A stretch of DNA of 64,000 nt from Helianthus annuus (Eukaryota > Streptophyta > Magnoliopsida > Asterales > Asteraceae): contig NC_035441.2 of NCBI RefSeq assembly GCF_002127325.2, positions 52,985,339 through 53,049,338 on the forward strand, read 5' to 3'. Each line of letters opens with the position of its first letter. Within the stretch, counting starts at the first letter, position 1. The notes beneath the pieces were generated by a model. The model made no database searches and had not been told where the DNA came from. It saw only the letters and a program-made list of their open reading frames with translations. The position numbers were made by a program, and so were the translations under genes. Positions 2,265 to 60,471 of this stretch are shown piece by piece.

Positions 2265-2977
2265 TTGAAGGATCTCCTGGGAAGAAAGAAGAATAAGACT
2301 CAGGATACTGAGAAGGATCCTAAACGAGCAGCATCACCTCCTGCGGATGCCAAGATAATTAACTTTATTTCAGGAGAATTCGATATCTGCAGAACTTCTT
2401 ATTCTGCAACCAAAAGACATGCAAAGGAGGCTAAGGCCGAAAGGGGAGATAAGCCAACCAGGATGACGACCCTCACAACTGATGAAGTGATCACGTTCGA
2501 CAGTAATGAAAGGGATACTATCCAGGATCCTCATCATGATGCTCTGGTGATAATGTTATATGTTGCTAATCATTTTGTACGCAGGATACTGGTGGATAAT
2601 GGCAGCTCCGTCAACATAATTCAACTAGAGACATTGAAGAGGATGAATGTATCCCCGATGGATATCACTTCGAAATCCACTGTACTTGTTGGATTCAGTG
2701 GAGAGGCCAGGAATACTGTGGGAGAGATAAAATTGTCAGTTTATGTTGAAGGGGTCAACTCAATGCAACGCTTTTGTGTCATGGACTCCTTATCCTGCTA
2801 TAATATTATATTGGGTAGGCCGTGGATCCATGATCTTAAAGCTGTGCTGTCTACCTATCATCAATGCATCAAGATCCCCACCCCTTGGGGGTAGTCAAGG
2901 TGGAAAGTAATCAACAGGAAGCAAAGGAGTGATATTCTTCTTCGATGAAATCCTCGACAAAGCCCAATGCAGCATAA
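2265..2977 (+). pseudogene. pol: A1 protease region, frameshifted
   Basis: This is the C-terminal part of the Gag-PR open frame. It contains the retropepsin-like motif ILVDNGSSVNII near 2590, where the usual Asp-Thr-Gly is Asp-Asn-Gly, and the flap/end motif LGRPWIHD near 2812. A single-base loss near 2885 (CCTTGGGGG against CCTTGGGGAG in A2) breaks the frame. The frame ends at TAA 2975-2977 followed by CAATTA, at the place where the other elements have UAG. Confidence 0.87.
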
Positions 2978-4329
2978 CAATTAAAGATGCAAGCCTAGGA
3001 TATCGTGGAAGCTTCAGAACAGGATGTTAAGAAATTATCCTGGATCAGGATAATCCAGATATCTCGGTGCTTGTAGGAACCAATATCCCACAGGATATTG
3101 AGAATCAGTTAACTAACTTTTTGAAATGCAGGATGTCAACATTTGCATGGAAGCACGAGGATATGACAGGTATTTCCAAAGATGTTATCACTCACAAGCT
3201 TGGAATTGACAAGTCGTTCAAGCCTGTTCAGCAAAAGAGAAGGAGTTTGCTCCTGAACGAAATACAATTATTCAAGAGGAAGTTGAAAGATTATTGAAGT
3301 CCAAGATGATCAGGGAGGTCAAATTTCCAAGATGGCTAGCAAATGTAGTTGTGGTGCAGAAGAAAAATGGGAAATGGAGAGTTTGTGTAGATTACACAGA
3401 CTTGAACAAAGCTAACCCCAAAGACCCATTTCCTCTACCTCATATTGACTCAATGGTGGATGGTACTGCTGGCCATGAGATGTTAACGTTCATGGATGCA
3501 TCCTCCGGATTCCAGCAGATCCAAATGGAACCTTCAGACCAGGAGGATACTGCTTTCATGACACCAACAGGTATTTATTGTTATACTGCTATGCCATTTG
3601 GTTTGAAAAAAGCAGGTGCAACGTACCAAAGATTGGTGAACATGATGTTTAAAGACAAGCTGGGGGACACCATGGAGGTGTACATTGATGACATGGTAGT
3701 AAAATCTAAGAAGGCCGAGGATCACCTCCAGGATATTAAGGGGGCATTTGATATCCTGGATCAATATAACATGAAGTTAAATCCTGCCAAGTGCCATTTG
3801 GAGTGGGGGCAGGAAAGTTTTTAGGATATATGGTGACTAAAAGGGGGATAGAAGCAAGCCCAGAACAGATCAAAGCCATCTTGGATATCAAGTCACCTTC
3901 GAACATGAAAGATGTACAAAGACTGACAGGGCGAGTAGTAGCATTAAACAAATTTATCTCAAGATCCTCGGAAAAATGCAAGGAATTTTGAAGCAATATC
4001 TTTCAACGGCACCTCTATTGATGAAGCCTGAGGATGGTGAACCATTATCCCTGTATCTCGCAGTATCAAGGAATGTTGTAAGTGCTGTTCTTGTAAAGGA
4101 TCATGAAGGTCAGCAGTATCCTGTCTATTATGTTAGTAAAAGTTTATTAGATGCTGAAACTAGATATTCTCATTTAGAAAAATTAATATTAGCCCTGGTT
4201 ATGGCATCAACGAAGCTTAGACACTATTTTGAGACACATAGGATTCATGTTAAAACTAATTATCCTGTTAAAAACATGCTTAGGAAACCCGAGATGTCAG
4301 GCAGGATGGCTAAGTGGTCAGTAAGTTAA
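2978..4329 (+). pseudogene. pol: A1 reverse transcriptase and first RNase H, broken
   Basis: RT motifs are visible in order: WKHEDMTGI, VVVQKKNGKWRVCVDYTDLN (about 3340-3405), MDASSGFQQIQM, the catalytic YIDDM near 3680, and KAGKFLGYMVT-like sequence. Frameshifts lie near 3240, 3295 and 3800. After RT about 65 bp are deleted at 3990 relative to A2. The remaining Ty3-type RNase H reads LSLYLAVS, PVYYVSKSLLDAETRYSHLEK, RHYFETH. Not functional. Confidence 0.88.
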
Positions 4330-14290: not shown

Positions 14291-15019
14291 CTGAGCAAGG
14301 GATATTTAAAAGATCTCTTGGGAAGAAAGAAGAATAAAGGTCAGGATACTGAGAAGGATCCTGAACGAGCAGCCTCACCTCCAGCGGATGCCAAGATAAT
14401 CAACTTCATTTCGGGAGGATCCGACATTTGTGGGACTTCGTATTCGGCGGCGAAGAGACATGCAAAAGAAGCTAAGGCTGAGAGGGGAGACAAACCTGTC
14501 AGGATGACTACCCTCACAACTGAAAAAATGATCACGTTTGATGCTGATGACAGGGATACTGTCCAGGATCCTCATCATGATGCTCTGGTAATAACGTTAT
14601 ATGTGGCTAACCATTTTGTACGCAGGATACTGGTTGATAATGGCAGTTCCGTCAATATAATCCAACTAGAGACTCTGAAGAGAATGAATGTGTCTCCGAT
14701 GGATATCACTTCGAGGTCTACTGTGCTCATTGGTTTCAGTGGAGAAGCTAAGAACACGGTGGGAGAGATAAAGTTGCCGGTATATGTTGAAGGAGTCAAC
14801 TCGATACAACGTTTCTGTGTGATGGATTCTCTATCCTGCTATAACATCATACTAGGAAGACCTTGGATCCATGATATGAAGGCCGTACCATCAACATATC
14901 ACCAATGCATCAAGATCCCTACCCCTTGGGGAGTTGTCAAAGTCGATAGCGATCAGCAGGAGGCGAAAGAATGTTACTCATCCTCAATGAAATCCTCGAC
15001 CAAATCAAGTGCAGCATAG
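14291..15019 (+). pseudogene. pol: A2 protease region
   Basis: The frame is open up to the TAG at 15017-15019. It contains GYLKDLLGRKKNK, the protease motif ILVDNGSSVNII near 14628 (Asp-Asn-Gly in place of Asp-Thr-Gly) and LGRPWIHDMKAVPSTYHQC. The domain looks intact, but it is out of frame with the upstream gag. Confidence 0.87.
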
Positions 15020-15025
15020 CAATTA
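15017..15025 (+). promoter_or_regulatory. candidate stop-codon readthrough site, A2
   Basis: TAG is followed by CAA TTA, fitting the UAG-CAR-YYA readthrough context. Here a second in-frame TAG follows at about 15061, so readthrough would no longer help this copy. Confidence 0.6.
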
Positions 15026-16390
15026 AAGATGCGGGCCCAAGATATCGTGGAGAGTTCGGAGTAGGATGTGAAGAAAGTTATCCTGGATTGGGATAACCCT
15101 GATATCTTGGTGCTCGTAGGAACCAATATACCTCAGGATATTGAAGATCAATTAACTAACTTTTGAAATGCAGGATGTCAACATTCGCATGGAAGCATGA
15201 GGATATGACAGGTATATCCAAAGACATTATTACTCACAAGCTTGGAATTGACAGGTCATTCAAGCCTATACAACAAAAGAGAAGGAAATTCGCCCCTGAG
15301 CGGAATGCAATTATCCAAGAGGAAGTTGAAAGATTATTGAAGTCTAAGATGATCAGAGAAGTCAAATTCCCTAGATGGCTAGCAAATGTGGTAGTGGTTC
15401 AAAAGAAGAATGGGAAGTGGAGAGTTTGTGTAGACTACACAGACCTGAACAAAGCTTGCCCAAAAGACCCATTCCCTCTGCCTCATATAGACTCGATGGT
15501 GGATGCCACTGCCGGTCATGAAATGTTAACCTTCAGACCAGGAGGATACTGCTTTCATGACACCAACAGGTATTTACTGTTATACTGCTATGCCTTTCGG
15601 TTTGAAAAATGCAGGTGCAACGTACCAGAGATTGGTGAACATGATGTTTAAAGACAAACTGGGGGACACCATGGAGGTGTACATTGACAATATGGTAGTC
15701 AAATCTAAGAAGGCTGAGGATCATCTCCAGGATATTAAAGGAGCATTTGATATCCTGGACCAGTATAATATGAAACTAAATCCTGCAAAGTGCCATTTTG
15801 GAGTGGGGGCAGGAAAGTTTTTAGGATACATGGTGACAAAAAGAGGGATAGAGGCAAGCCCGGAGCAGATCAAAGCTATCCTGGATATAAAGTCACCCTC
15901 GAATATGAAGGATGTTCAACGGTTAACAGGACGAGTGACAACCTTGAATAGATTTATCTCAAGATCCTCGGAAAAATGTAAAGAGTTCTATGATATCTTG
16001 AAAAAGAATAAGAAATTTGAATGGGGTGAGAAGCATGAAGCAGCCCTGCAGAAATTGAAGCAGTATCTCTCAACCGCGCCTCTATTGATGAAGCCTGAAG
16101 ATGGTGAACCATTATCCCTGTATCTTGCAGTATCAGGGAATGCAGTAAGTGCGATCCTTGTAAAGGATCACGAAGGTCAGCAGTATCCTGTTTATTATGT
16201 TAGCAAAAGTTTGATAAATGCTGAAACTAGATATTCTCACCTAGAAAAGTTAATACTGGCTCTAGTTATGGCATCAACAAAGCTTAGACATTATTTTGAG
16301 ACACATAGGATTCATGTTAAAACTAATTATCCTGTTAAGAATGTGCTTAGGAACCTGAGATGTCGGGTAGAATGGCTAAGTGGTCGGTAA
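15020..16390 (+). pseudogene. pol: A2 reverse transcriptase and first RNase H, inactive
   Basis: RT motifs KNGKWRVCVDYTDLNKACPKD and PFGLKNAGATYQRL are present, but about 44 bp covering MDASSGFQQIQM are deleted near 15535. The catalytic box reads YIDN (Asn codon 15689-15691) in place of YIDD. Ty3-type RNase H follows (YLAVSGNAVSAIL, YVSKSLINAETRYSHLEK). A frameshift near 16360 separates it from the aRNH. Confidence 0.9.
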
Positions 16391-25960: not shown

Positions 25961-26680
25961 GGGCACTTGAAAGAACTATTGGGGAGAAAGAAATCAAGAA
26001 CTCAGGATCCTGAAAGGATCCCAGAGAAAGCTCCAGCCCCTCCAGCAGATGCACAAGTTATAAACTTCATATCTGGAGGATCAGACATTTGTGGAACATC
26101 CTTTTCAGCAGCCAAAAGACATGCAAAGGAAACCAAGATGGATAATGGGGATAGACCCATTCGAACATCCAGTGTCTCGGAAGGAAAAATCATAACTTTT
26201 GATGAGGATGATCGTGTTGACATTCAGGATCCTCATCACGATGGTTTGGTTATTACTCCTTTTATTTCTAACCATTTTGTTCGCAGGATCCTTATAGACG
26301 GAGGAAGCTCTGTGAATATCATCCAGCTTGATGTTCTTAAGAAGATGAATATTCCCGAATCGGATATCATACCAAGATCCTCTGTGCTCGTGGGATTCAG
26401 TGGCGAGACTAAGAATACTCTGGGGGACATTAAACTCCCAATCTACGTTGAAGGGCTACATATTTACCAAAAGTTTTGTGTTATTGATTGTTTATCTTGT
26501 TGTAATGTTATCCTTGGCAGGCCTTGGATACACGACATGAAGGCAGTCACATCCACTTATCATCAATGTGTGAAGCTTCCTAGTCCTTGGGGGATAGTGA
26601 AGATTGATAGTGATCAGCAGGAGGCTAAGAACTGCTACACCTCATCAATGAAACCAGCCTCAAAGTCAAGGGAGCAATAG
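25961..26680 (+). pseudogene. pol: B2 protease region
   Basis: The frame is open and runs from GYLLSKGHLKELLGRKK through protease motif RILIDGGSSVNIIQ (Asp-Gly-Gly) near 26285 to LGRPWIHDMKAV and ends with TAG at 26678-26680. The domain is intact but separated from gag by a frameshift. Confidence 0.88.
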
Positions 26681-26686
26681 CAATCA
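26678..26686 (+). promoter_or_regulatory. candidate stop-codon readthrough site, B2
   Basis: CAA-TAG-CAA-TCA, fitting UAG-CAR-YYA. The downstream pol is in the same frame and has no ATG at its beginning. Confidence 0.65.
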
Positions 26687-27571
26687 AAGCATACTCCAAG
26701 AGATGTCTTGGAGGCAAGAGAGCAGGATGTAGTAGAAATCCTTATGGATCCTGATGATCCTGAGTCTAAAGTTTACATAGGATCAGGGATCCTTGCCGAA
26801 ATGAAAGAAGACCTCATATCCTTCCTCAAAAGGAGAAAGACTACCTTTGCATGGAAACACGAAGATATGACAGGTATATCTAAAGATATAATCACTCACA
26901 AACTTGGCATTGACAGGTCGTTCAAACCAATCCATCAAAAGAGGAGGAAGTTTGCACCAGAAAGAAATGCCATTATCCATGAGGAGGTAGAAAAATTACT
27001 CCGAGCAGGTATGATTAGAGAGGTTAAATATCCAAGATGGTTGGCCAATGTGGTTGTTGTTCAAAAGAAAAACGGAAAGTGGAGGGTATGTGTCGATTTC
27101 ACAGATTTAAATAAGGCATGTCCCATGGATCCTTTCCCATTACCCCACATTGACTCCATGGTGGATGCAACCGCGGGTCATGAACTGTTAACTTTTATGG
27201 ATGCTTCATCTGGATTTCAGCAAATTCAGATGGAACCATCTGATCAAGAGGATACAGCCTTTATGACTCCAACTGGTATATACTGTTATATTGCTATGCC
27301 ATTTGGACTAAGAAATGCAGGTGCAACTTATCAAAGGCTAGTAAATATGATGTTCAAGGATCAGATTAGACATACTATTGAAGTTTATATAGACGATATG
27401 GTGGTTAAATCTGAAAAGGCTGAGGATCACCTGGGGGACTTGGAGGAAGCATTCAATATCCTTGACAGATATAACATGAAACTTAATCCTTCAAAGTGTC
27501 ACTTTGGTGTTAAAGCAGGTAAATTCTTAGGATATATGGTGACAAAGAGAGGCATTGAAGCCAGTCTATGA
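26681..27571 (+). pseudogene. pol: B2 reverse transcriptase
   Basis: Open from the readthrough site through WKHEDMTGI, KNGKWRVCVDFTDLN, MDASSGFQQIQM, YIDDM (near 27388) and KAGKFLGYMVTKRGIEAS. About 130 bp that follow in D (from PEQIKA to KCKEF) are deleted at 27564, shifting the frame. Confidence 0.9.
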
Positions 27572-37675: not shown

Positions 37676-38959
37676 TCACATGAAATATTTTTTCAAGTGG
37701 ACAGCATTCCAAGCTCTTGGTAGCAAATCACCTTCCATTGTTAGCAACCGATATGCCCCCTTTCTTACTTCAGCTTCAATCAAATAAAGGCCTTCCCACT
37801 TTGGTGCCAACTTTCCATCAGCGGGATTGGTAGTATTCTGAAATGCTTTCCTCAGTACCATATCACCAACTTGGAATTTCCTGATCCTGACATTCTTATT
37901 GTAAGCTCCAGCCATCCTTTGTTGATAACTGGCCATCCTTATCCTTGCTAAATCCCTGAGTTCTTCTATAGTATCCAGGTCTTGAACCAAGTTTCAGCAT
38001 TTCCTTCAGGATTACGAATGCTTGTTCTTGCAGTAGGAACCACCATTTCTATAGGGATTACTGATTCTGCCCCAAATACCAAAGAGAATGGAGTTTGACC
38101 AGTAGCATTCTTGGGAGTTGTTCTGTCAGCCCATAATACATAAGGTAGCTCTTCTGCCCATTTTCCTTTCTTGGATCCAAGCTTCTTCTTCAAATTGTTG
38201 ATGATAATCTTGTTGGATGATTCTGCCTGGCCATTAGCTTGTGGGTGGACTGGTGTTGATGTTATCATCTTAATCCCCCAGCTATCACAAAAGTTAGTAG
38301 TTCTACTCCCAATAAATTGGGATCCATTATCACATACAATTTCAGAAGGGATATCAAATCTAGTAATAATATTACTCTTGATAAAGGATATCACTTCTTT
38401 TTCTCTGACTTGAGCAAAGGCTTCAGTCTCTATCCACTTTGAGAAATAGTCAGTCATAGCAAGCATGAACACTTTTCCACCAGGTGCCTTCGGAAGTTTA
38501 CCAACTATATCCATCCCACATCTCATAAATGGCTAAGAAGAGGATATAGGATGAAAGAGCTCTGCTGGTTGGTGAAGGATATTACTGTGTCTCTGACAAG
38601 GATCACATCTTTTAGCATAATCCACAGCATCCTTCTTCATAGTAGGCCAATAGTATCATGTTCTCATGATCCTTGAGAATAATGCCCTGCCCCCAGTGTG
38701 ATTTCCACAATCTCCTTCATGAAGATCCTTTAAGACTTCTTGGATTTCAGGATCCTCAATACATCTTAGATATGGTCCTGCAAGAGATCGTTTATATAGC
38801 ATATTATTCAATATTGTAAACTGAGATACCATAATTTTGAAAGCCCTGGGGTTTTCTCCTGTAGGGATCTCTCCATGTTGGATATATAATGAGATCCTGT
38901 GTCATCACTAGGGATAATTGCGGAATCTTCTCCTTTTTCCATAGCTGTGTGATCCTCAA
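37676..38959 (-). pseudogene. pol: B3 integrase, broken
   Basis: The C-terminal domain (37990-37676, ending KKYFM) and the core (38526-37966; [25 protein letters not shown]) lie in different frames. The zinc region (CDPCQRHSN near 38600) has stops, including a Trp-to-stop change near 38533. It is interrupted by C at 38960. Confidence 0.88.
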
Positions 38960-39676
38960 TGTTAGGGCTGGATTTTTATAATACATGATCCTTACATGTG
39001 ATCCTAACCAGTGATCCTTGTTTCTTTGGCAGATAGTGATCCTCAGCAGAGTTCCAGGATCAGGATCACGGACTATCATAGGATCCTCATGATAACAGTT
39101 GCTTTCATTGAACTTAATGTCATTTTGCAGGAATGTCTAGCAGGATCCGCTCTTAGCATCACAATCAAGGGACGCGTCTTTACAACTTTGGCATATGCTT
39201 AATCAGAGATGAACGTTGTGAAGGATATGGAAACTTGGCATGATTTAAGGGCGATAATTTAGGCTAGATTTACTTTTATTTCTAAAGGGGTAATGAGCTG
39301 ATTATTAGTTTGTTTACCTAAAATAGGCCACTCACACTTGTATATATAACACTCTTCCCCATTCGGAAGACACACAACACAATTCTCTCACGCTTAGACA
39401 CTCGAAACTATAGTGATCCTTGTACTCAGCTCATTATCATCCGAAGTTGTAACCATTTTTCTTATATTGAAGTTTGGTGATCGGTAGTTGCCATCACCCG
39501 AGGTTTTTTATGCCAGAGATCATACATTGATCAAGGGCTTTTTCCTCGAATAAATCCTTGTGTCTCTTGCATATTTCTTACTAAAGTGATCCTTTACTTT
39601 TTCAACAAACCAAGCATCATTCCCCGTTTACTTAGAGTTTGGTTGCATTATCCTTGTGTGATTTTTGACCAAAACA
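38960..39676 (+). repeat. C 5' LTR
   Basis: 717 bp, TGTTAGGGCTGG to GACCAAAACA, with TATATATAAC near 39350 as the likely TATA box. It contains eight GATCC and four GGATC by my count. Confidence 0.95.
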
Positions 39677-39697: not shown

Positions 39698-39753
39698 AAT
39701 TGGTGCTTCATTCATAAGAAAACTTTCTGTTCGAAATCATTTCAAAGAGTTAC

Positions 39754-42345
39754 ATGGCTTCATCATTGAAGAATACATCCACAGCGATGTCGGCAGTCAA
39801 TTCATCTACTGGCATTCCACCTTTGCCTCCACCACCAGCTGGATCTCAGAAAAATGCTGAGAAGAGACCAACTTCTATCTCCTCTAAACCATCATCTTCT
39901 GCTCTAACTTCTTCTGTTCCCAGTACTAGTGATATATTTACTTTGATTTTGCAGATGAGGGATCGTATGCAGCAGCAGGATGAAACTAATGACAGGATCC
40001 TCAGAGAAATCGGAGATCTCAAAAGGCAAAAGAAAACGGCAGAGGATCATTCCCCACTAATGCCCAAATCTTTGAATTTTGATACTCCAATGATTACTTC
40101 TCAGCCATCAGAGGTCCCAGACATTCAATATATGGGTGGATCAAGAGGAGTGCATTTCAGCCCAGCAACAATGACTCAGGCATCAGGATCATATTTCCAA
40201 CCGGCGGGATCCTACGCCCAGCATTTGGGATCTTTCATGAGCTTAGGATCCTCCTTAGTCCCAGGATCATCCCAGGTTCAAGGATCCTCCTTCGTTCCGG
40301 GAACATCCCAGGTTCAAGGATCCTCCTTTGTTCTAGGATCATCCCAGGTTCAAGGATCCTCCTTCGTCCCAGGATCATCCCAGATTCAAGAATCCCTACA
40401 GATACAAGGATCCTTGAAGAATTTGCAAACAGGAAGCCTAGATGTCCATCAAGGAGATTTTATTCCAATGCAGACCATTGCTTCCACTGGTCCATCCATT
40501 ATCCCAGAATCCCAGCAATATGGATTCACACCCAATGTTGCTAACTTGAACCCGATGGGAGGTAACACCTTAAATAATTATCTTACCACTAACCATGGAT
40601 TCGTGCAGGATACAGGTATCAATCATGCTATGGCCATGGAGTTACAGAAGCTGAAAGATATGATCTCAAGTGTTCCAGGGGTAGTCAAGCCTATCCCGGA
40701 GATTGCAGATGGAAGCCATAAGGTATCTCGTTTTGCACCACCAATTTGTGATGCAGAGGTACCCAAAAGGTTCCATATCCCTACTATGAAGCTGTATAAT
40801 GGTACAACGGATCCTGAGGAGCACATAGCACAATACAGGGAGAGGATGGAGATCAATCCAATCCCAGAAAAGTTAAAGGAAGCATGCCTATGTAAAGGAT
40901 TTGGATCCACCCTTACTGGATCAGCTCTTAAATGGCTGCTAAGTCTTCCCCCTTACTCTATCACTTCATTTGCTAATTTAGTTAATTTATTCAATAACCA
41001 ATTCTCTTGTAGTAGAAAATTTGAAAGATTAACTAGTGATTTATATAGGGTAACTCAAAGTCATAATGAATCATTAAGGGATTATATAACTAAATTCAGT
41101 AAAGAATCCTTGGACATTCCCAACTTGGATATGGCCACGGCTGTTGAGGCCTTCAAAATGGGACTGCTTAAGGATTCATTGTTCTATGATGATCTTGTTA
41201 TGACACCATGCAGGAACCTAGATGAAGTAAGAACTCAGGCACTCAGGTTCATCCGGCTAGAGGATGACAAGAGGATCCAGGAGAGGCAAGTAGGATCCTC
41301 AAAACAGGAGAAACAAGGATCCTCTTTCAAGAACAATAAGTTCAAATCCTACCATAGAAATGACAACCAGAACGTGCATGCTGTTGACCAAGAAGAGGAT
41401 GACGAGGATTATCCTCCGATTTCTGAATATTGTTTTTCTGTTGACAATCATGAACTAATCCTAGCAATGCAGAATCTAGGAGAAAAAGCCAGATGGCCCA
41501 GAAAGAATGACAAATCATCCGGGACTAAAGACAAGTCAAAGTGGTGTACATACCACGAGGATTTCGGGCATCTAACTGAAGAATGCATAGCATTAAGAAA
41601 AGAAATTGGATATCTGTTAAGCAAGGGGCATCTAAAAGAATTGTTGGGGAGAAAAAAGCAAAGGACTCAGGATCCTGAAAGGATCCCTGAAAAGGCTCCA
41701 GCCCCTCCGGCGAATGCACAAGTGATCAACTTTATTTCCGGAGAATCAGATATTTGTGGTACATCCTTCTCGGCAGGCAAGAGGCATGCAAAGGAAGCAA
41801 AAATGGATAATGGAGAAAGACCTATTCGAACATCAAGTGTCTCGGAAGGAAAGACGATAACGTTTGATGAGGATGATCGCATTAACATCCAGGATCCTCA
41901 TCATGATAGTTTAGTTATCACTCTCTTTATTTCTAACCATTTTGTCCGCAGGATCCTTATCGACGGAGGAAGCTCAGTAAACATTATCCAGCTTGATGTT
42001 CTAAAGAAAATGGGTATCCCAGAATCAGACATCACACCAAGATCCTCCGTGCTTGTGGGATTCAGTGGAGAAACGAAGAAAACTCTGGGGGACATCAAAC
42101 TCCCAATCTACGTGGAAGGATTACATAATTATCAAAAATTTTGTGTTATTGACTGTTTATCTTGTTGCAATGTTATCCTTGGCAGGCCCTGGATACATGA
42201 TATGAAAGCAGTCCCATCCACCTACCATCAATGTGTGAAACTCCCTAGCCCATGGGGGATAATCAAGATCGACAGTGATCAGCAGGAGGCTAAGGATTGT
42301 TATACCTCATCCATGAAGCCAACCTCGAAGCCAAGGGAACAATAG
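39754..42345 (+). CDS. gag: C Gag-protease polyprotein, complete
   Basis: An open frame of 863 residues from the first ATG after the leader (MASSLKNTSTAM). Layout: Pro/Ser-rich N-terminus, helical RILREIGDLKRQKK (about 88-101), Gly/Ser/Gln repeat (about 165-225), gag domain from MKLYNGTTDPEEH (about 345) to LEDDKRIQERQ (about 512), variant knuckle C-x2-H-x4-H-x4-C (about 598-611), protease with ILIDGGSSVNIIQ (about 735) and LGRPWIHDMKAV. It would form particles and process itself. The stop is a UAG in readthrough context, with pol in the same frame. Confidence 0.93.
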   Translation: MASSLKNTSTAMSAVNSSTGIPPLPPPPAGSQKNAEKRPTSISSKPSSSALTSSVPSTSDIFTLILQMRDRMQQQDETNDRILREIGDLKRQKKTAEDHSPLMPKSLNFDTPMITSQPSEVPDIQYMGGSRGVHFSPATMTQASGSYFQPAGSYAQHLGSFMSLGSSLVPGSSQVQGSSFVPGTSQVQGSSFVLGSSQVQGSSFVPGSSQIQESLQIQGSLKNLQTGSLDVHQGDFIPMQTIASTGPSIIPESQQYGFTPNVANLNPMGGNTLNNYLTTNHGFVQDTGINHAMAMELQKLKDMISSVPGVVKPIPEIADGSHKVSRFAPPICDAEVPKRFHIPTMKLYNGTTDPEEHIAQYRERMEINPIPEKLKEACLCKGFGSTLTGSALKWLLSLPPYSITSFANLVNLFNNQFSCSRKFERLTSDLYRVTQSHNESLRDYITKFSKESLDIPNLDMATAVEAFKMGLLKDSLFYDDLVMTPCRNLDEVRTQALRFIRLEDDKRIQERQVGSSKQEKQGSSFKNNKFKSYHRNDNQNVHAVDQEEDDEDYPPISEYCFSVDNHELILAMQNLGEKARWPRKNDKSSGTKDKSKWCTYHEDFGHLTEECIALRKEIGYLLSKGHLKELLGRKKQRTQDPERIPEKAPAPPANAQVINFISGESDICGTSFSAGKRHAKEAKMDNGERPIRTSSVSEGKTITFDEDDRINIQDPHHDSLVITLFISNHFVRRILIDGGSSVNIIQLDVLKKMGIPESDITPRSSVLVGFSGETKKTLGDIKLPIYVEGLHNYQKFCVIDCLSCCNVILGRPWIHDMKAVPSTYHQCVKLPSPWGIIKIDSDQQEAKDCYTSSMKPTSKPREQ
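40245..40400 (+). repeat. 36-bp minisatellite in C gag
   Basis: About four units encode GSSFVPGSSQVQ. Each has AAGGATCCTCC and AGGATCATCC words. D has a diverged array at 45918-46045. Confidence 0.85.
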
Positions 42346-42351
42346 CAATTA
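42343..42351 (+). promoter_or_regulatory. candidate stop-codon readthrough site, C
   Basis: CAA-TAG-CAA-TTA. UAG CAA UUA is the well-studied tobacco mosaic virus readthrough context. The frame after it is open and has no ATG until about 42466, inside the conserved pol start. Confidence 0.75.
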
Positions 42352-44604
42352 CAGATTCCTCCAAGGAATGTCTTGGAGGCAAGGGAACAAGATGTGGACG
42401 AAATCCTCTTGGATCCTAGTGATCCTGAATCAAAAATCTATATCGGATCAGGGATCCTTGGCAAGATGAAAGAAGACATAATATCCTTCATCAAAAGAAG
42501 AAAATCTACCTTTGCATGGAAACATGAAGATATGACAGGTATATCTAAGGATATTATCACTCATAAACTTGGCATTGACAGGTCTATCAAACCAATCCAT
42601 CAAAAAAGGAGGAAATTTGCACCAGAAAGGAATGCCATTATCCAAGAAGAAGTAGAGAGACTACTTCGAGCAGGTATGATCAGAGAGGTAAAATATCCAA
42701 AATGGTTAGCCAATGTGGTTGTTGTCCAAAAGAAAAACGGAAAGTGGAGGGTATGTGTCGATTTCACTGATCTGAATAAGGCATGTCCCAAGGATCCTTT
42801 CCCACTACCCCACATTGACTCCATGGTGGATGCAACGGCGGGGCATGAACTGTTGACCTTTATGGATGCATCATCTGGATTCCAACAAATTCAGATGGAA
42901 CAATCTGACCAAGAGGATACAGCCTTTATGACCCCAACCGGTTTATATTGTTATATTGCCATGCCTTTTGGACTAAGAAATGCAGGTGCAACATATCAAA
43001 GGCTGGTGAATATGATGTTCAAAGATCAAATAGGACAAACTATGGAAGTATACATAGATGATATGGTAGTCAAGTCAAAGAAGGCTGAGGATCACCTAAG
43101 GGACTTGGAGGAAGCATTTGATATCCTTGATAATTATAACATGAAGCTTAATCCTTCAAAATGCCACTTTGGTGTTAAAGCAGGTAAATTTCTAGGATAT
43201 ATGGTAACTCAGAGGGGCATCGAAGCAAGCCCGGAGCAAATTAAAGCGCTAGTGAATATCAAGTCCCCTGCCAATGCTAAGGATGTGCAAAGGCTAACAG
43301 GCAGGATAGCAGCTCTAAACAGGTTCATATCAAAATCCTTAGAAAGATGTAAAGAATTTTATGATATCCTAAGGAAAAACAAAAAATTTGAATGGACTGA
43401 AAAGCATGAGAATGTTTTACAAGCCCTTAAAGAATATATGTCCTCAGCACCAGCATTAATGAAACCCGGAAAAGGAGATGTGTTATCCTTGTATCTGGCG
43501 GTATCCTCAACCGCTGTAAGTGCAGTCCTTGTTAAGGATCACGAAGGTACACAACATCCTATCTACTATGTAAGTAAGAATTTACTTGATGCCGAATCCA
43601 GGTACTCACACCTTGAAAAACTTATTCTTGCATTAATTATGGCATCAACTAAGTTAAGACATTATTTTGAAACCCACACTATTGTTGTTAGAACTAATTT
43701 TCCAATCAAGAATGTCCTCAGGAAACCAGAGATGTCCGGAAGAATGGCTAAGTGGGCAGTAAAGCTTAGTGCCCATGATATAAGATATGAGCCTAGAACA
43801 GCCATTAAATCCCAAGCACTAGCTGACTTTGTGGCTGATTTCAGTAGTGATCTACAAAAGGAAGCAGAATTGGAAGTCCAGCAGCTGGATGAGACCAAGG
43901 ATCCTTGGATAATACACACTGATGGATCCTCAAATGTCAAGGGCACAGGGCTCGGGATACTACTAAAATCGCCACAGGGGGACATAATACCCCACTCCAT
44001 AGCCTGTGAGTTCCAAGCAACCAACAATGAGGCTGAATATGAAGCCTTAATTGCTGGCTTGCAAATTGCTAAGGATATGGGGGTGAAATATCTTAAAGTA
44101 TATGTAGACTCATTATTGATCACCAATCACTTTAATGGATCCTATGCTGTTAAAGGTGAAAAACTAACCAAATATTTAGAGATAGTCAAAGAATTGGCAC
44201 TCTCTTTTGTCTCTTTCAGCTTAACACAGGTACCAAGGGAGGAAAACACAGAAGCTGATGCATTGGCCAACCTAGGATCATCCTTGAAGATTCCAGAAGA
44301 TATAAGTATCCCCATCATCCATATCCTGGCTCCTGCTATTGAAAATCAGGTGGCCATGGAAATAGAAGAGGATACTGCAGTGATCCCTAGTGAAGAAGCT
44401 CAATCTTATTCAGGATCATGGATCTCACCAATTATGAGATACTTGCAATACGGGGAGATTCCTATGGGAGAAAATCCTAAAGCTTTCAGGATTAAGTTAT
44501 CTCAATTCACAATCTTAAATAATATGCTATATAAACGATCTCTTGCAGGACCATATTTAAGATGTATCGAGGATCCTGAAATTCAAGAAGTATTGAGAGA
44601 CTTC
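42346..44604 (+). CDS. pol: C pol, part 1 (RT, RNase H, aRNH, start of INT)
   Basis: Open in the gag-PR frame for 753 codons. RT: KNGKWRVCVDFTDLN, MDASSGFQQIQM, YIDDM near 43051. Ty3-type RNase H (LYLAVSSTAVSAVL, YVSKNLLDAESRYSHLEK). aRNH (HTDGSSNVKG, NNEAEYEALIAGL, EADALANLGSS). D inserts exactly at a codon boundary after RDF at the beginning of the integrase zinc region. Position 44604 is the end of the left duplication. Confidence 0.92.
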
Positions 44605-45321
44605 TGTTGGGGCTGGATTTTACTATAAATGATCCTTATACGTGATCCTGACAAATGATCCTTGTTTCTTTGGCAGATAGTGATCCTCAGCCAGACTTCA
44701 GGATCAGGATCATGGGACGATATGGTGATCCTTATACTAACGGTCATTTTCGATTACTACAATATTATTTTGCAGGAATATCTAGCAGGATATGCCCTAC
44801 ATATCATGATCCAGGGACGCGCTTTTACAAATATGGCAAGAGCTGAATTGAAGATGAACGTTGTGCCGGATATGGAAACATGGCTTGATCTAAGGGCAGC
44901 AATTTAGGCTAGATTATCTTTATTTCTAAAGGGGTAATGAGCTGATTAGTGGTCTATCTACCTAAAATAAGTTACCTACACATGTATAAATACCCATCTT
45001 CCTCATTCGGAAGAACACACACAACATACGACACAACTCTCAACACTTAGACACTCAGTGATCCTTGTACTCAGCTCATTATCGTCCGAAGTTGTAACTA
45101 CATTTTTGTTATATTGAAATTGGTGATCGGTAGTTGCCATCACCCGAGGTTTTTTATGCCGGAGATCATACATTGATCAAGGGCTTTTTCCTCGTATAAA
45201 TCATTGTGTCTTTGCATCTTTATCACAGAAGTGATCATTTACTTTCATAGCTAACCAAGCATCATACCCCATTTACATAAAGTTTGGTTACATTATCCTT
45301 GTGTGATTTTTGACCAAAACA
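44605..45321 (+). repeat. D 5' LTR
   Basis: 717 bp, TGTTGGGGCTGG to GACCAAAACA. The probable TATA box is TATAAATA at 44985-44992, followed by ACACACAC near 45017. Confidence 0.96.
45145..45194 (+). other. conserved LTR stem-loop, D copy
   Basis: CGAGG (45145-45149) faces CCTCG (45190-45194), with inner TGCC facing GGGC and a GATC-TACATT-GATC core. Same block as A1 357-401. Confidence 0.5.
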
Positions 45322-45324
45322 GTT

Positions 45325-45342
45325 TGGCGCCCACCGTGGGGC
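45325..45342 (+). other. primer binding site of D
   Basis: TGGCGCCCACCGTGGGGC, three bases after the LTR. Confidence 0.88.
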
Positions 45343-45399
45343 AATTGGTGCTTCATTCATAAAGAAAATCTTTTATTCAAAATCATTTCAAAGAGTTAC

Positions 45400-47970
45400 A
45401 TGGCTTCATTATTGAAGAACACTTCCACGGCGATGTCTGCAGTCACCTCGGCACAAACTACTCTACCTCCTCCACCGGCAGGATCCCAGAGAAATGCTGA
45501 GAAGAGACCAACCCCTTCTTTCTCTAAACCTACATCTTCTTCTGCTATGAATTCTTCTATTCCCAGTACTAGTGATGTGTTTGCTTTAATTTTGCAGATG
45601 AAGGATCGTATGCAGCGGCAGGATGAAACTAATGACAGGATCCTCAGGGAGATTGGAGATCTCAAAAGACAAAAGAAAGCGGCAGAGGATCATTCCCCAC
45701 TGATGCCAAAATCCTTGAGTTTTGAGACTCCAATGGTCACCTCTCAGCCATCAGGGATCCCAGACGTACAGATCACAGGGGAGACGAGAGGACTACATCT
45801 CAAGTCAGCAGCAATGACTCAGACATCGGGCTCGTATTTTCAGCCAGCAGGATCCTATCCTCAGTATATGGGATCCTTCATGAATCCGGGAGCCTATCCG
45901 GGGGCACAACAGTTTCAAGGATCCTACTTTATCCCAGGATCATTCCAGGGCCAAGGATCCTCCTTTATTCCAGGATCATCCCAGGTTCAAGGATCCTCCT
46001 TCGTTCCAGGATCATCCCAGATACCAGGATCCTTACAGATGCCAGGATCCCTAAAAAGTTTGCAAACAGGGAGTCTAGATGTCCATCAAGGGGACTTCAT
46101 TCCAATGCAGACTATTGCTTCCACTGGTCCCTCCGTTGTTCCAGAATCCCAGCAATATGGATTCCCTAACTTGAACCCAGTGGGAGGTAACACTTTAAAT
46201 AATTATCCTACCACTAACCATGGATTCATGCAGGATACAGGTGCCAATCATGTTATGGCCAGGGAACTACAGAAACTAAAGGACATGATCTCAAGTGTTC
46301 CAGGGGTAGTCAAGCCTATCCCAGAGATTGCAGATGGGAGCCACAAGGTATCTCGCTTTGCACCACCAATCTGTGATGCAGAGGTACCCAAAAGGTTCCA
46401 TATCCCTACCATGAAGTTGTATGACGGCACAACGGATCCAGAGGAGCATATAGCACAATACAGGGAAAGGATGGAGATCAATCCTATCCCGGAAAAATTG
46501 AAGGAAGCATGCCTATGTAAAGGATTTGGATCTACTCTTACTGGATCAGCCCTCAAATGGCTGCTAAGTCTTCCCCCTTACTCTATTACTTCATTTGCTA
46601 ATTTAGTTAATTTATTCAATAACCAATTTTCTTGTAGTAGAAAATTTGAAAAATTAACTAGTGATTTGTACAGGATAACTCAAAATCATAACGAATCATT
46701 AAGAGATTATATAACTAAATTTAGTAAAGAATCCTTGGATATTCCCAACTTGGATATGGCTACGGCCGTTGAAGCCTTCAAAATGGGACTTCTTAAGGAT
46801 TCATTATTCTATGATGATCTTGTCATGACACCTTGCAGGAACTTAGATGAAGTAAGAACTCGAGCACTCAGGTTTATCCGGCTAGAGGATGACAAGAGGA
46901 TCCAGGAGAGACAAGTAGGATCCTCAAAACAAGATAAGCAAGGATCCTTCTTCAAAAGCAACAAGTTCAAATCCTACCATAGAAACGAGAACAAGAGTGT
47001 GCATGCTGTCGACCAAGAAGAGGATGATGAAGAATATCCTCCAATCTCAGAATATTGTTTTTCCGTTGATAATCATGAACTAATCCTTGCAATGCAGAAT
47101 CTAGGTGAAAAGGCTAGGTGGCCCAGGAAGAATGATAAACCATCCGGGACTAAAGACAAGTCCAAATGGTGTGCATACCATGAGGATTTCGGCCATCTGA
47201 CTGAAGATTGCATAGCTTTAAGAAAGGAAATTGGATACCTGCTAAGCAAGGGACATCTAAAAGAATTGCTGGGGAGAAAAAAGCAAAGGACCCAGGATCC
47301 TGAAAGGATCCCCGAAAAAGCCCCAGCACCTCCGGCAAATGCACAAGTGATCAACTTCATATCCGGAGGATCAGACATTTGTGGTACATCCTTTTCAGCG
47401 GCCAAAAGACATGCAAAAGAATCAAAAATGGACAATGGAGAAAGGCCTATTAGAACATCAAGTGTTTCAGAAGGGAAAACGATAACCTTTGATGAGGATG
47501 ATCGCATCAACATCCAGGATCCTCATCATGATAGTTTAGTTATTACTCTCTTTATTTCTAACCATTTTGTCCGCAGGATCCTTATCGATGGAGGGAGCTC
47601 AGTGAACATAATCCAGCTTGATGTCTTGAAGAAGATGGGAATCCCAGAATCAGACATCACACCAAGATCCTCCGTGCTTGTAGGATTCAGTGGAGAAACG
47701 AAGAAAACTCTGGGGGACATCAAACTCCCAATCTACGTGGAAGGATTACATAATTATCAAAAATTTTGTGTTATTGACTGTTTATCTTGTTGCAACGTTA
47801 TCCTTGGCAGGCCTTGGATACATGACATGAAAGCAGTTCCATCTACCTACCATCAATGTGTAAAGCTCCCTAGCCCATGGGGGATAATCAAGATCGACAG
47901 CGATCAGCAAGAGGCTAAGGATTGCTATACCTCATCCATGAAGCCAACCTCGAAGCCAAGGGAGCAATAG
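45400..47970 (+). CDS. gag: D Gag-protease polyprotein, complete
   Basis: The ATG at 45400 (MASLLKNTSTAM) starts an 856-residue frame. I chose it because it aligns with the C and E starts; the frame is open further upstream into the LTR but without ATG. Gag domain from about residue 338 (MKLYDGTTDPEEH) to 504, variant knuckle WCAYHEDFGHLTEDC near 590-604, protease ILIDGGSSVNIIQ near 727. It ends at the UAG of the readthrough site. Confidence 0.95.
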   Translation: MASLLKNTSTAMSAVTSAQTTLPPPPAGSQRNAEKRPTPSFSKPTSSSAMNSSIPSTSDVFALILQMKDRMQRQDETNDRILREIGDLKRQKKAAEDHSPLMPKSLSFETPMVTSQPSGIPDVQITGETRGLHLKSAAMTQTSGSYFQPAGSYPQYMGSFMNPGAYPGAQQFQGSYFIPGSFQGQGSSFIPGSSQVQGSSFVPGSSQIPGSLQMPGSLKSLQTGSLDVHQGDFIPMQTIASTGPSVVPESQQYGFPNLNPVGGNTLNNYPTTNHGFMQDTGANHVMARELQKLKDMISSVPGVVKPIPEIADGSHKVSRFAPPICDAEVPKRFHIPTMKLYDGTTDPEEHIAQYRERMEINPIPEKLKEACLCKGFGSTLTGSALKWLLSLPPYSITSFANLVNLFNNQFSCSRKFEKLTSDLYRITQNHNESLRDYITKFSKESLDIPNLDMATAVEAFKMGLLKDSLFYDDLVMTPCRNLDEVRTRALRFIRLEDDKRIQERQVGSSKQDKQGSFFKSNKFKSYHRNENKSVHAVDQEEDDEEYPPISEYCFSVDNHELILAMQNLGEKARWPRKNDKPSGTKDKSKWCAYHEDFGHLTEDCIALRKEIGYLLSKGHLKELLGRKKQRTQDPERIPEKAPAPPANAQVINFISGGSDICGTSFSAAKRHAKESKMDNGERPIRTSSVSEGKTITFDEDDRINIQDPHHDSLVITLFISNHFVRRILIDGGSSVNIIQLDVLKKMGIPESDITPRSSVLVGFSGETKKTLGDIKLPIYVEGLHNYQKFCVIDCLSCCNVILGRPWIHDMKAVPSTYHQCVKLPSPWGIIKIDSDQQEAKDCYTSSMKPTSKPREQ

Positions 47971-51276
<3,306 letters not shown>

Positions 51277-51568
51277 ACATGATCCTTCCTGCATGTGATC
51301 CTTACATTGAAGTATCCTTGAAGGATCCTGGAGATATCGGTGATCCTTACTCAGGTAATATGCTTATCCTAAAACTATTGCATTTTCTTACTTTTTGCCT
51401 AAGGATAAGGATCATGTATCCTTCATCCTCTACTCACAAACCATTTGAGTTATGATAGTTCAGGTATCTTCAGCAAATTGTCAAAGATCACCAAAAGCAC
51501 CACAGATCCTTGGGTACAACCCCAGTTATCCTTGGGATTATCCCCAGTTTCCGCCAGCAGCGCACGAT

Positions 51569-51650
51569 GATCCTGATATAGTTCACGTCTTTGGGATCAG
51601 TACCCATTTTCGGGGCTGGCGACCTCATCGTACTGGCTATACTTGGGATC
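51569..51650 (+). other. covarying long stem-loop, copy D
   Basis: GATCCTGATATAG faces CTATACTTGGGATC (weaker centre), with inner CAGTAC facing GTACTG. Confidence 0.5.
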
Positions 51651-51790
51651 CTACGTATAATGGTGGACGCACCATACATCCGTTCCTAAGGTTTCTAACG
51701 TTTTCACGTTAGCTAAGGTTTTGACATTTTCATGTCACTAAAGTTTGGATAGTTGCCAGAAAGGGCCATACTCCAGTTTACATACGATCC

Positions 51791-52015
51791 TTTGGGCTTG
51801 TCCCCAGTTATCCTTTGGGCTTGTCCCCAGTGATCCTCCGGGATCATCCCCAGTTATCCTTTGGGCTTGTCCCCAGTGATCCTCCGGGATCATCCCCAGT
51901 TATCCTTTGGGCTTGTCCCCAGTGATCCTCCGGGATCATCCCCAGTTATCCTTTGGGCTTGTCCCCAGTGATCCTCCGGGATCATTCTCAGTTATCCTTT
52001 GGGCTTGTCCCCAGT
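51791..52015 (+). repeat. 23-bp minisatellite with 46-bp higher-order unit
   Basis: About ten units. TTTGGGCTTGTCCCCAG and TCCGGGATCATCCCCAG types alternate, separated by TTATCC or TGATCC, giving a 46-bp dimer repeated four times. C has only four units. Confidence 0.9.
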
Positions 52016-52464
52016 TACTAACTTATCTTTTATATTGGCTTAGTCCCAAGTTATATTCCATTTTTTCAGGTTTTCGAAGTTAAACGATTAAGGATCCTTA
52101 ATCCTTATTATCCATTAAAGTTTTACCTACGGTTGTTCCAATTAAAGGTTAGGATCCAAACTTGGATCCTCAGGTATGATCCTTAACTACTTTTAATTTC
52201 ATTATTCACTTGAATAACCTTTAGACCTTGACAACTGAACCTATGATCCTTAAAATAAACTATCTTGGAAACTTTCGATTATAGGATATTTGATCCAGGA
52301 TCATATCCTAAATTTCTTAAACATAATTTGCTCAAACTTTTCAAACAAACATGTGTCAAAACAATTGAAAATCAAAAAGGATAACAACACAAGATAAGCC
52401 AGAAAGATTAAAGTTATATTATTAAACCAAAGGATCATTAACCCTTTCAAAAAAGTTGTCAAAA

Positions 52465-52627
52465 TTACCTACCCAAAGCTTCTACCAGCAATACGTGGCC
52501 CGTCCGCTGGGGTAGGTAAAGGGTATCCATGATAATAGGTTCAAAAGTATTGCAGGGAAATTAAAAGGCGGCAGGATCACAACGGCTTCATCCCCCAAAC
52601 AGAGGATCCCTCCACCATGTGTAATCC
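52465..52627 (+). other. two-hairpin array, copy D
   Basis: TTACCTACCC (52465-52474) pairs perfectly with GGGTAGGTAA (52510-52519). Relative to B2 (TTGCCAACCC/GGGTTGGCAA) two positions changed on both strands, so pairing is kept. The second hairpin is at 52572-52627. Confidence 0.65.
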
Positions 52628-52794
52628 TACCTATTGTTCAAAGGATCCAGGATCCTTAACCCTAAAGAAACTACTGTTCAGAAATTACAGACCATAATCG
52701 TTCACAAACCATCAACCACAAACCACTACCAAAAAACCTAAAAAATTGGGCTCCGGCCTAGTCAACAATATCCATCATCGCCCAATCATGCAGC

Positions 52795-54405
52795 CTACTT
52801 CTCTGCTGCTCCATCTCCACCAGCATCTTCACCTTGATCCTTGCCAGCATCACCTCCCTCCAGCATTGGGATGTCCTCAGCATCATCGTCATCTTCCAAT
52901 TCTGCTAGCCTTGCCTTCCAACCTTCAACATCCCATGTGCTCCTGTCAAAGGAAGGATCCTGAGCCTCCGTAGCCATCTGCAGTTGTATCTTGTACATGG
53001 TTACCGCAGCAGAGACCTTAGCGTCTTGGGTAATGTCATGCTTCTCATAATCAAACTTGATCAACGCTTTAATAGCCTCATCTTTGACTGCCCGGATCTC
53101 CTTCTCAAGATCGGCAATCTTAAGATCCTTCAGCCCACACGTCTGTTGAAGGTCAGCAATTTGACGATCCTGATCCTCAACCTGATTGACGTAAGTCTCC
53201 ATTTCGGAGAATTTCTAAAGAAGACAACAGGAAAGCAACATCAGACACATGTGATCCTCGGACTCGTCGAAGACAATTAACAGGGGCAGTGATCCTAACC
53301 TCATCAAAATAGTCAAGGAATTGCTGACGGAGAAGAGGAAATCCTTGAAGGTCATCTGAAGCCTTCCTCTTTTTCCCTTTGCCTCGGGCAGGTGCTTTAG
53401 GGGCTGAGACTGAAGGGCTGGCAGCAGGAGCCTTCTTCTTCTTAGAAGACGTGACATTGGCAAGGTCACTTATCCCAAACATGGAGGCAGATTTAACAGA
53501 CCTGGCAGACTTTCCGGCACCTACACAATTCAAAAACAAGATAAGTTCCCTTGTTAAATTAAATACTTTCACATAAAACTTATTGTCTATGAGGATACTT
53601 ACTTGACATTGTGGCAGATGCAGAGGATATCTCTTGAGAATCTTGGATAATAACCTGGAAACTTCGAACTTCAGGATCAAGCTTCTTGAAAGCTAACACT
53701 CTCTCTTTGGCAGCAGGGGTCAAGTTTAAATGAGCAACGGAGATAGCTGCATAAAAAGACAAAAAAGAAAAGACATCAGTGATCCTTATCATACGAGACA
53801 GGACTGATAGTGATCCTTCAAGGATCCTCTACCCTACCATGAGTGACCCATTCCTCGGGCAGATCCTTCCCATCCGGGATGGAATCCCTCTTAACAAAGA
53901 AAAACCGACGTTTCCAGTTTTTATCATTCTTGGTAACTTTGAAGATAGGGTGATCCTCCCCAGATTTCCGTTTCAACAAGTACCGGTGAGAACCAAAGGT
54001 GGTGAGATCATAGAGCTCAGCTAACTCTGACATCCCCAAATCAATCCCTTCTTGCTCGATGATCCTCTCAAAGGTATATAGAACCCTCCAGATCATCGGC
54101 ATAGCTTGGATAAATGAGATGCCGGTAAGAGAAAAGAAAGATTGGGTAAATGTCGGAAAAGGATATGAATACCCGATGAGGAAAGGAGTAGCAGGAAAGG
54201 CCACCCAAGTGTCCGAAACAAAATCACTCAGAGCAGTAGGATCAAAGGGTTTGAAAACAACATTCGCTGGGAAACAATGGCGAATCTTGTCTATTTGGAT
54301 ATCGGTAAAACAGCATCTCTCCATAGGAGAATCTTTGATAATCCCCTGGCTTTTCAAGGGACTATCCTTCTTAGAGCCTTTGTGCGGTGAATTCCGAAGA
54401 AGCAT
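52795..54405 (-). CDS. D antisense four-exon gene, open
   Basis: Predicted exons: 54405-53838 (568 nt), 53746-53603 (144), 53520-53300 (221), 53214-52795 (420). The sum is 1353 nt, 450 residues. Introns of about 75-92 nt have GT-AG ends. Exon 1 (residues 1-189) carries TDIQIDKIRHCFPAN, PMIWRVLYTFERIIEQEG and RRFFFVKRDSIPDGKDLP. Exon 3 has SSKKKKAP and GKGKKRK, suggesting nuclear import. Exon 4 has a coiled coil (QIADLQQTCGLKDLKIADLEKEI) and a Gly/Asp-rich end. It has no signal peptide or membrane segment, so an env role is unlikely. The function is unknown. Confidence 0.78.
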
Positions 54406-54550
54406 ATTCGAGAAGAAAACAGAGTAAAAGCACGAAAGAACAGAGCAAAGAAGAGAAAGAGGAGGATGATACCTGATCAAGAGTCTTCAATGATGGTTAT
54501 AAAGGGAGATACTTCGAATTTAAATACAAAATGATCCTAACCCTATCTCC

Positions 54551-54593
54551 TATTTATAATGATGATTTGCAGGGATCGTCACATCAGTGACGT
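54551..54593 (-). promoter_or_regulatory. antisense promoter of D
   Basis: Minus-strand TTATAAATA (54559-54551) with TGACGT at 54588-54593 (read here on the plus strand) about 30 bp upstream. AACGGCTAG occurs twice beyond (54603-54630). TATA to ATG is about 150 bp. Confidence 0.6.
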
Positions 54594-54715
54594 AAATGTC
54601 ACAACGGCTAGTCCATATGTAACGGCTAGTAACCCGGAATCGTCCGTTAGAGATAAGCTTAAAACAAAATATAACTCATCTATTTACAATTAACTCCTTA
54701 TATTTTGGGGGCAAT

Positions 54716-55432
54716 TGTTGGGGCTGGATTTTACTATAAATGATCCTTATACGTGATCCTGACAAATGATCCTTGTTTCTTTGGCAGATAGTGATCCTCA
54801 GCCAGACTTCAGGATCAGGATCATGGGACGATATGGTGATCCTTATACTAACGGTCATTTTCGATTACTACAATATTATTTTGCAGGAATATCTAGCAGG
54901 ATATGCCCTACATATCATGATCCAGGGACGCGCTTTTACAAATATGGCAAGAGCTGAATTGAAGATGAACGTTGTGCCGGATATGGAAACATGGCTTGAT
55001 CTAAGGGCAGCAATTTAGGCTAGATTATCTTTATTTCTAAAGGGGTAATGAGCTGATTAGTGGTCTATCTACCTAAAATAAGTTACCTACACATGTATAA
55101 ATACCCATCTTCCTCATTCGGAAGAACACACACAACATACGACACAACTCTCAACACTTAGACACTCAGTGATCCTTGTACTCAGCTCATTATCGTCCGA
55201 AGTTGTAACTACATTTTTGTTATATTGAAATTGGTGATCGGTAGTTGCCATCACCCGAGGTTTTTTATGCCGGAGATCATACATTGATCAAGGGCTTTTT
55301 CCTCGTATAAATCATTGTGTCTTTGCATCTTTATCACAGAAGTGATCCTTTACTTTCATAGCTAACCAAGCATCATACCCCATTTACATAAAGTTTGGTT
55401 ACATTATCCTTGTGTGATTTTTGACCAAAACA
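54716..55432 (+). repeat. D 3' LTR
   Basis: 717 bp after the tract TATTTTGGGGGCAAT. One mismatch to the 5' LTR. Confidence 0.97.
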
Positions 55433-55437
55433 ACTTC

Positions 55438-56484
<1,047 letters not shown>

Positions 56485-60466: not shown

Positions 60467-60471
60467 CTCAA

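Follow-up and report, generated by a model that had tools for sequence, protein, structure and literature searches.

How is the polymerase of a retrotransposon translated when a stop codon stands in frame between its protease and its RT? The question is raised by five element copies (A1, A2, B2, C, and D) in a stretch of 64,000 nucleotides of Helianthus annuus DNA, hereafter the window. How the excess of Gag over Pol arises in plant LTR retrotransposons is largely unsettled. According to the excerpted text of a 2025 review, in which the term readthrough does not occur, there are two main strategies, frameshifting and the use of separate transcripts (PMC12786077). A conserved leaky stop of the viral type in young elements would be one answer, and it is an answer that can be tested with a short reporter.

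The comparisons described below make it probable that the ratio of Gag-PR to Gag-PR-Pol is set by programmed UAG readthrough of the type known from tobacco mosaic virus (TMV), with the context UAG-CAR-YYA. The majority of ribosomes would terminate at the UAG and release Gag-protease. Meanwhile, a minority would decode the stop as an amino acid (in plants, the TMV context yields tyrosine), stay in frame, and produce Gag-PR-Pol, and the ratio of readthrough would fix the excess of Gag. This would account for the production of much capsid and little polymerase. We infer from the sequence both the passage of ribosomes through the stop and the rate at which it would take place.

Structure of the elements and of the protease/RT junction

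Element D (44605-55432) is flanked by a 5-bp target duplication and is nested inside the pol of copy C. The coordinates of the features are given in Table 1. Two further regions of the window, 38960-39676 and 59750-60466, share 99.3% identity along their 717 bp and are possibly the LTR pair of copy C, which is probably young as well, like D. The TAA in the integrase frame of D (50710-50712) is absent at that codon from the other copies aligned there, and the pol frame reopens past this private stop (50713-51276).

Table 1. Junctions, downstream RNA structures, ORFs, and LTRs of the element copies in the window
Feature	Positions	Strand	Remarks
Copy A1, junction GCA-TAA-CAA-TTA	2972..2983	+	Stop 2975-2977; degenerate copy with further stops
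Copy A2, junction GCA-TAG-CAA-TTA	15014..15025	+	Stop 15017-15019
Copy A2, longer-range stem	15030..15118	+	120-nt fold z -4.08; differs from the hairpin of B2, C, and D
Copy B2, junction CAA-TAG-CAA-TCA	26675..26686	+	Stop 26678-26680
Copy B2, hairpin	26694..26713	+	13 nt past stop; 8 bp
Copy C, Gag-PR ORF	39718..42345	+	875 aa stop to stop; Pfam Retrotrans_gag
Copy C, junction CAA-TAG-CAA-TTA	42340..42351	+	Stop 42343-42345, hexamer 42346-42351
Copy C, pol ORF (RT, RNase H, aRH)	42346..44628	+	760 aa; interrupted by insertion of element D at 44604/44605
Copy C, hairpin	42358..42379	+	12 nt past stop; 9 bp, 4-nt loop
Element D, 5' LTR	44605..45321	+	717 bp, 99.86% identical to 3' LTR; ACTTC at 44600-44604
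Copy D, Gag-PR ORF	45307..47970	+	887 aa stop to stop
Copy D, junction CAA-TAG-CAA-TTA	47965..47976	+	Stop 47968-47970
Copy D, pol ORF (RT, RNase H, aRH, integrase)	47971..50712	+	Closed by private TAA at 50710
Copy D, hairpin	47983..48004	+	12 nt past stop; 9 bp; A-U changed to G-U, pair kept
Element D, 3' LTR	54716..55432	+	ACTTC target duplication repeated at 55433-55437
Copy C, pol continuation (integrase) beyond D	55438..56289	+	ORF 55366-56289 begins within the D LTR

The Pfam analysis of D placed gag in ORF 1 and RVT_1 (127-286), RNase H (350-475), RVT_3 (525-643), and integrase (744-913) in ORF 2. No Pfam match to a protease was obtained in the Gag-PR ORFs of C and D, and the protease assignment relies on homologous proteins annotated as "aspartic peptidase domain superfamily". 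The domain order GAG-PR-RT-RH-aRH-INT fits both Ogre and Retand elements (PMC6317226). A preliminary description of the window had called the elements Tat-like, with which the domain order, the paired LTRs, and the target-site duplication of D agree. The elements belong to the Tat/Retand LTR retrotransposons and stand close to Helianthus members of that group. Protein searches placed sequences of Helianthus annuus nearest, with a best cluster (103 members) that shares 96% identity with the query across 97% of its length. By size, with an LTR length of 717 and an internal length of 9,394, D resembles the published clusters Helianthus annuus 4 and 5, described as having no TRP28, LTR lengths of 719-720, and internal lengths of 9,310-9,313 (PMC11963269). 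A long region between pol and the 3' LTR with an antisense TRP28 ORF counts among the marks of Tat/Retand elements. In D, this region is approximately 3.4 kb long, and TRP28 was not seen in the two antisense ORFs that were tested. More fragments with RNase H/aRH and integrase domains lie on the minus strand at 60425-61324 and 37969-38532.

An in-frame stop between protease and RT, followed by CAA-TTA or CAA-TCA, is present in all five window copies. The stop is UAG in four of them and UAA in A1, and CAR-YYA follows it in 5/5. The preliminary description had reported TAG-CAA-TCA for B2, TAG-CAA-TTA for A2, and TAA-CAA-TTA for A1, as well as a Gag-PR of C and D that ends in CAA-TAG-CAA-TTA and is followed by a pol in the same frame with no initial ATG; the letters and the ORFs confirmed all of this. 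The Gag-PR and pol ORFs of C and D abut without a gap, and since they share one frame, frameshifting was rejected. The first in-frame ATG of pol is codon +41 in C and D and codon +22 in B2, and the ATGs ahead of it are in another frame. This comparison at the DNA level covers the five window copies, which have a common ancestry.

Conservation around the stop codon

The codons of the other copies were mapped onto D, to which 1610 codons of A1, 1620 of A2, 1904 of B2, and 1631 of C could be aligned. The junction proved to be the sole internal stop common to all five copies. The remaining internal stops are private to single copies, save one that A1 has in common with A2. D, A1, A2, and B2 also share the TGA that terminates pol.

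Among C, D, and B2, dN/dS was 0-0.06 for the 30 codons that precede the stop and 0.08-0.23 for the 30 that follow it. For codons +1 to +15, it was 0.22-0.30, a value based on few sites that indicates weaker selection there. Both flanks of the junction are under purifying selection. The low dN/dS on either side means that pol is selected as a protein upstream of its first ATG, and it seems to be translated from near its own start. The dS in the flanks was ~0.3 between C and D and 0.7-1.05 in the comparisons with B2, and the stop was retained while the flanking synonymous sites diverged to this extent.

The hexamer was examined in the same way. In the linker, which comprises 18 codons (-8 to -1 and +1 to +10), the CAA at +1 alone is identical in the five copies. 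Codon +2 is TTA in four copies and TCA in B2, the latter being still compatible with CAR-YYA, and the two deviants (TAA at the stop of A1 and TCA at +2 of B2) both obey the readthrough rule. The gapped mapping of codons -20 to +30 showed 4/36 codons identical in five copies, namely -10, +1, +16, and +19. Between D and A2, CAA was retained at 17/36 codons and TTA at 10/36, and 9-mers conserved as well as the junction were found in 8/150 surrounding windows for A2-C and 5/150 for A2-D. The conservation of the hexamer as a stand-alone proof was discarded, as it is unremarkable in comparison with the surrounding windows and the general codon retention. The preliminary description had argued that a random stop would not keep its six downstream bases in two families. 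The presence of the stop is indeed beyond chance, as it is the only internal one found in five copies, but the conservation of the hexamer is modest, and because of the comparable 9-mers nearby and the ordinary retention of CAA and TTA, that sentence was overstated. The argument rests on the hexamer combined with the stop and the selection.

A hairpin is located 3' of the stop in B2, C, and D. When all 30-nt windows were ranked by stability, with the overlapping windows of the hairpin itself included, it took rank 3/1618 in C, 4/1949 in D, and 3/1890 in B2. Copy A2 ranked 477/1687 in the 30-nt windows and 6/1663 in the 100-nt windows. Its longer-range stem begins at about the same distance from the stop as the hairpin of the other three. 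The 120-nt folds starting from the stop had z values of -1.39 in C, -0.99 in D, -3.81 in B2, and -4.08 in A2, and the stop-centred 120-nt folds of C and D were not unusual (z 0.74 and 0.16). Other stems are kept as well, at +358 in C, D, and B2 and at +1787 in C and D, the last matching +1659 in B2. The conservation of the hairpin was discarded as a proof, given the other kept stems, the post hoc choice of the site, and the ordinary 120-nt folds of C and D. With a site picked post hoc and stems conserved elsewhere, we put forward as a suggestion that the hairpin may aid readthrough.

Relatives outside the window

Three overlapping searches (60 proteins, 58 proteins, and the best 120 of 266) yielded 175 proteins. 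The first of these scored only the 7996 candidates with the most words in common. The motif of the protease end was found in 86 of the 175 proteins among the matches listed (88 had no match and one false match was removed). Of these motif-bearing proteins among the matches listed, 71/86 end at most 11 residues past the motif and 15/86 are longer.

The tail past the motif is exactly 8 residues long in 15/15 proteins from Helianthus (7), Deinandra (3), Tagetes (2), Erigeron (2), and Bidens (1) among the matches listed, and also in P0002, P0018, P0021, P0023, and P0034; in four further proteins among these matches, the tail measures 6, 89, 95, and 139 residues. In Centaurea, the tail is 6 residues in 9/10 of the matches listed. 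Outside the Asteraceae, the matches listed gave a tail of 6 in 19/20 spinach proteins (2 in the other one), a tail of 7 in 10/12 Silene proteins (32 and 49 in the others), ends 5-11 residues past the motif in beet (2), quinoa (4), Saponaria, dodder, Salvia, and Tripterygium (1 each), and an end 2 residues past the motif in the one hop protein. The non-Asteraceae Retand-like Gag-PR proteins (Spinacia, Beta, Chenopodium, Silene, Saponaria, Cuscuta, and Salvia) mostly end 5-11 residues past the motif. The named relatives beyond Helianthus keep the same end at 51-75% identity of the aligned part.

The proteins of carrot (4/4), celery (1/1), Arctium (3/3), and Smallanthus (1/1) among the matches listed extend past this position, some by predicted introns; those of carrot and celery do so with no stop. 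Two of them are single frames with a tyrosine in the place of the stop. The Smallanthus protein P0049 reads ..TRQA-Y-QLKK.., with the Tyr at the stop position of its kin, and the Arctium protein P0060 reads ..KQSI-Y-QLQ.., where 9/10 of the Centaurea relatives among the matches listed end. Either Tyr-Gln-Leu could have arisen from UAR-CAR-YUR through the change of a single base. From these two proteins, we infer that CAR-YYA may occur beyond the window.

These relatives were compared at the protein level, which covers the position of their ends. The counts tilt to two-ORF forms, as the length limits of the searches excluded full-length polyproteins. They are tilted further by the loss of the motif from gene models that skip the stop, by spinach, which supplies 20/71, and by the restriction to the best 120 of 266.

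Among viral contigs, there was no sequence match, and the 36 pattern matches included none encoding a relative. The search of genome contigs gave one distant locus only, with 33% identity. It is located on the contig SVBD01000032.1, binned to an Erysipelotrichaceae MAG, where the encoded pol is 33% identical to that of the window; this locus is probably a eukaryotic contamination and was left out of the comparison.

Readthrough, its rivals, and known systems

TMV itself has CAA-UUA after the stop. Type I leaky UAG stops of this kind are known from plant RNA viruses. The junctions of C, D, and B2 share with them the stop, the flanking CAA codons, and CAA-UYA; they differ in lying in a retrotransposon, between protease and RT, with a hairpin nearby. 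In the context studied in plants, UAG stands between CAA codons and is followed by CAA-UYA (PMC2754532); these three junctions match it exactly (CAA-UAG-CAA-UYA). In the excerpted text of the same study, 25 nt around the stop of TMV are said to be sufficient, tyrosine is inserted in plants, UAA and UGA are less efficient, and the wild-type context reached 32% in transient assays of readthrough, whereas the data from stable lines were consistent with 6-10% (PMC2754532).

The interpretation of the junction as a readthrough site, made in the preliminary description, is supported by the stop common to diverged copies, the selected flanks, the abutting ORFs, the plant context, and the lack of a usable splice donor. 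Readthrough is the best supported explanation because, among other points, the Gag-PR of other genera ends at the same residue. Counterpoints are the second stop of D (50710), which lies in the integrase, and the carrot and celery relatives that extend past the position with no stop.

The serious rival is alternative splicing of a short stop-containing intron, in which unspliced transcripts would give Gag-PR and spliced ones Gag-PR-Pol. This is the arrangement of Ogre, which belongs to the Tat lineage and has two ORFs (Gag-PR and RT-INT) as here, but parted by a spliced intron. The splicing of GAG-PROT/RT was shown experimentally for the pea and Medicago Ogre, whose ORFs are on average 274 bp apart (PMC6317226), whereas those of the window abut. 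Two Tagetes gene models, P0031 and P0062, join PWGV to QLKK and skip the codons up to the stop position; if their DNA resembles that of the window, the AG within the stop would serve as acceptor. Several further models omit the stop, P0074 (JGI, 880 aa) has one continuous Gag-PR-RT frame without the stop stretch, and one AG located 9 nt past the stop is kept in 5/5 copies. The models, however, are predicted ones, and the frame of P0074 could have arisen by deletion. This protein, either a deletion or a spliced copy, resembles the Centaurea and Arctium proteins.

The window copies were scanned for splice sites with a simple GT/AG consensus, and no convincing ones were found in the five copies, with 250 nt upstream covered for donors. 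No GT with at least 6/8 matches to the donor consensus was present within 250 nt upstream in the five copies, no GT was common to the five copies at equal ungapped offsets, and the nine GTs that B2, C, and D have in common reach 2 to 4 matches out of 8. Splicing would also excise coding sequence that is under protein-level selection on both flanks. We consider splicing improbable. A leaky stop may itself account for some gene models in which the elements are split or the stop is spliced away.

Two other rivals, inherited nonsense and internal initiation, agree less well with the data than readthrough does. It is very unlikely that the stop is a functionless nonsense mutation inherited from a master element that was amplified using the enzymes of other copies. 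A1, A2, and B2 are damaged, D has an extra stop, and stop-free relatives exist, as this explanation would have it. Against it, C, D, and B2 have many synonymous differences and little protein change around the stop, the same Gag-PR end recurs in the named relatives outside Helianthus at the identities given above, and the remaining internal stops are private or limited to A1 and A2. A separate start of pol, by internal initiation, reinitiation, or a second promoter, is hardly credible in spite of the two abutting ORFs, with the first in-frame ATG 41 (C and D) or 22 (B2) codons into pol and the codons before it selected as protein, less strongly in the first 15.

The idea of readthrough is not wholly new in this lineage. 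The rice gypsy-type elements (ref. 19, RIRE2, Ohtsubo et al. 1999) were named as readthrough candidates (PMC2754532), and RIRE2 was placed in Retand (PMC6317226). RIRE2 thus shares the lineage of the window elements and the proposed mechanism, but it is a monocot element. Among the literature titles and openings of abstracts listed, none describes a junction of this kind in elements of sunflower or of the Retand lineage. The preliminary description had stated that frameshifting, splicing, or a single frame is usually assumed for Tat-like elements; a single ORF is indeed common, but the statement passes over the earlier proposal for RIRE2. A single gag-pol ORF was reported in 37/63 clusters, and the figures of 29% and 83% in the excerpted text seem to give the proportion of one-ORF clusters in monocots and eudicots, respectively (PMC11963269). 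If 83% is read as the eudicot share, then most recently active eudicot Retand clusters would be without such a stop. We advance only tentatively, and with more doubt than confidence, the wider idea that UAG/UAA-CAR-YYA between protease and RT could be an old, recurrent device of eudicot Retand elements, aided by the 3' hairpin and lost by a one-base change to Tyr; the one-ORF figures (PMC11963269) lower its odds. If it is true, few other sets of TMV-type readthrough sites in plant genomes would be as numerous as that of the eudicot Retand elements.

Two other systems may be compared. For SIRE1 of soybean, suppression of a stop codon was reported ahead of the env-like frame (PMC2829016). SIRE1 is of the Ty1/copia lineage and its junction is that of pol and the env-like frame, whereas the window junction is that of protease and RT. 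In Moloney murine leukaemia virus, readthrough of an in-frame UAG, stimulated by a 3' pseudoknot, yields Gag-Pol (PMC5009743). The window elements resemble this virus in the proposed UAG readthrough, the pseudoknot being a feature of the virus. In gammaretroviruses, the protease lies after the stop, while in the window elements it lies before it.
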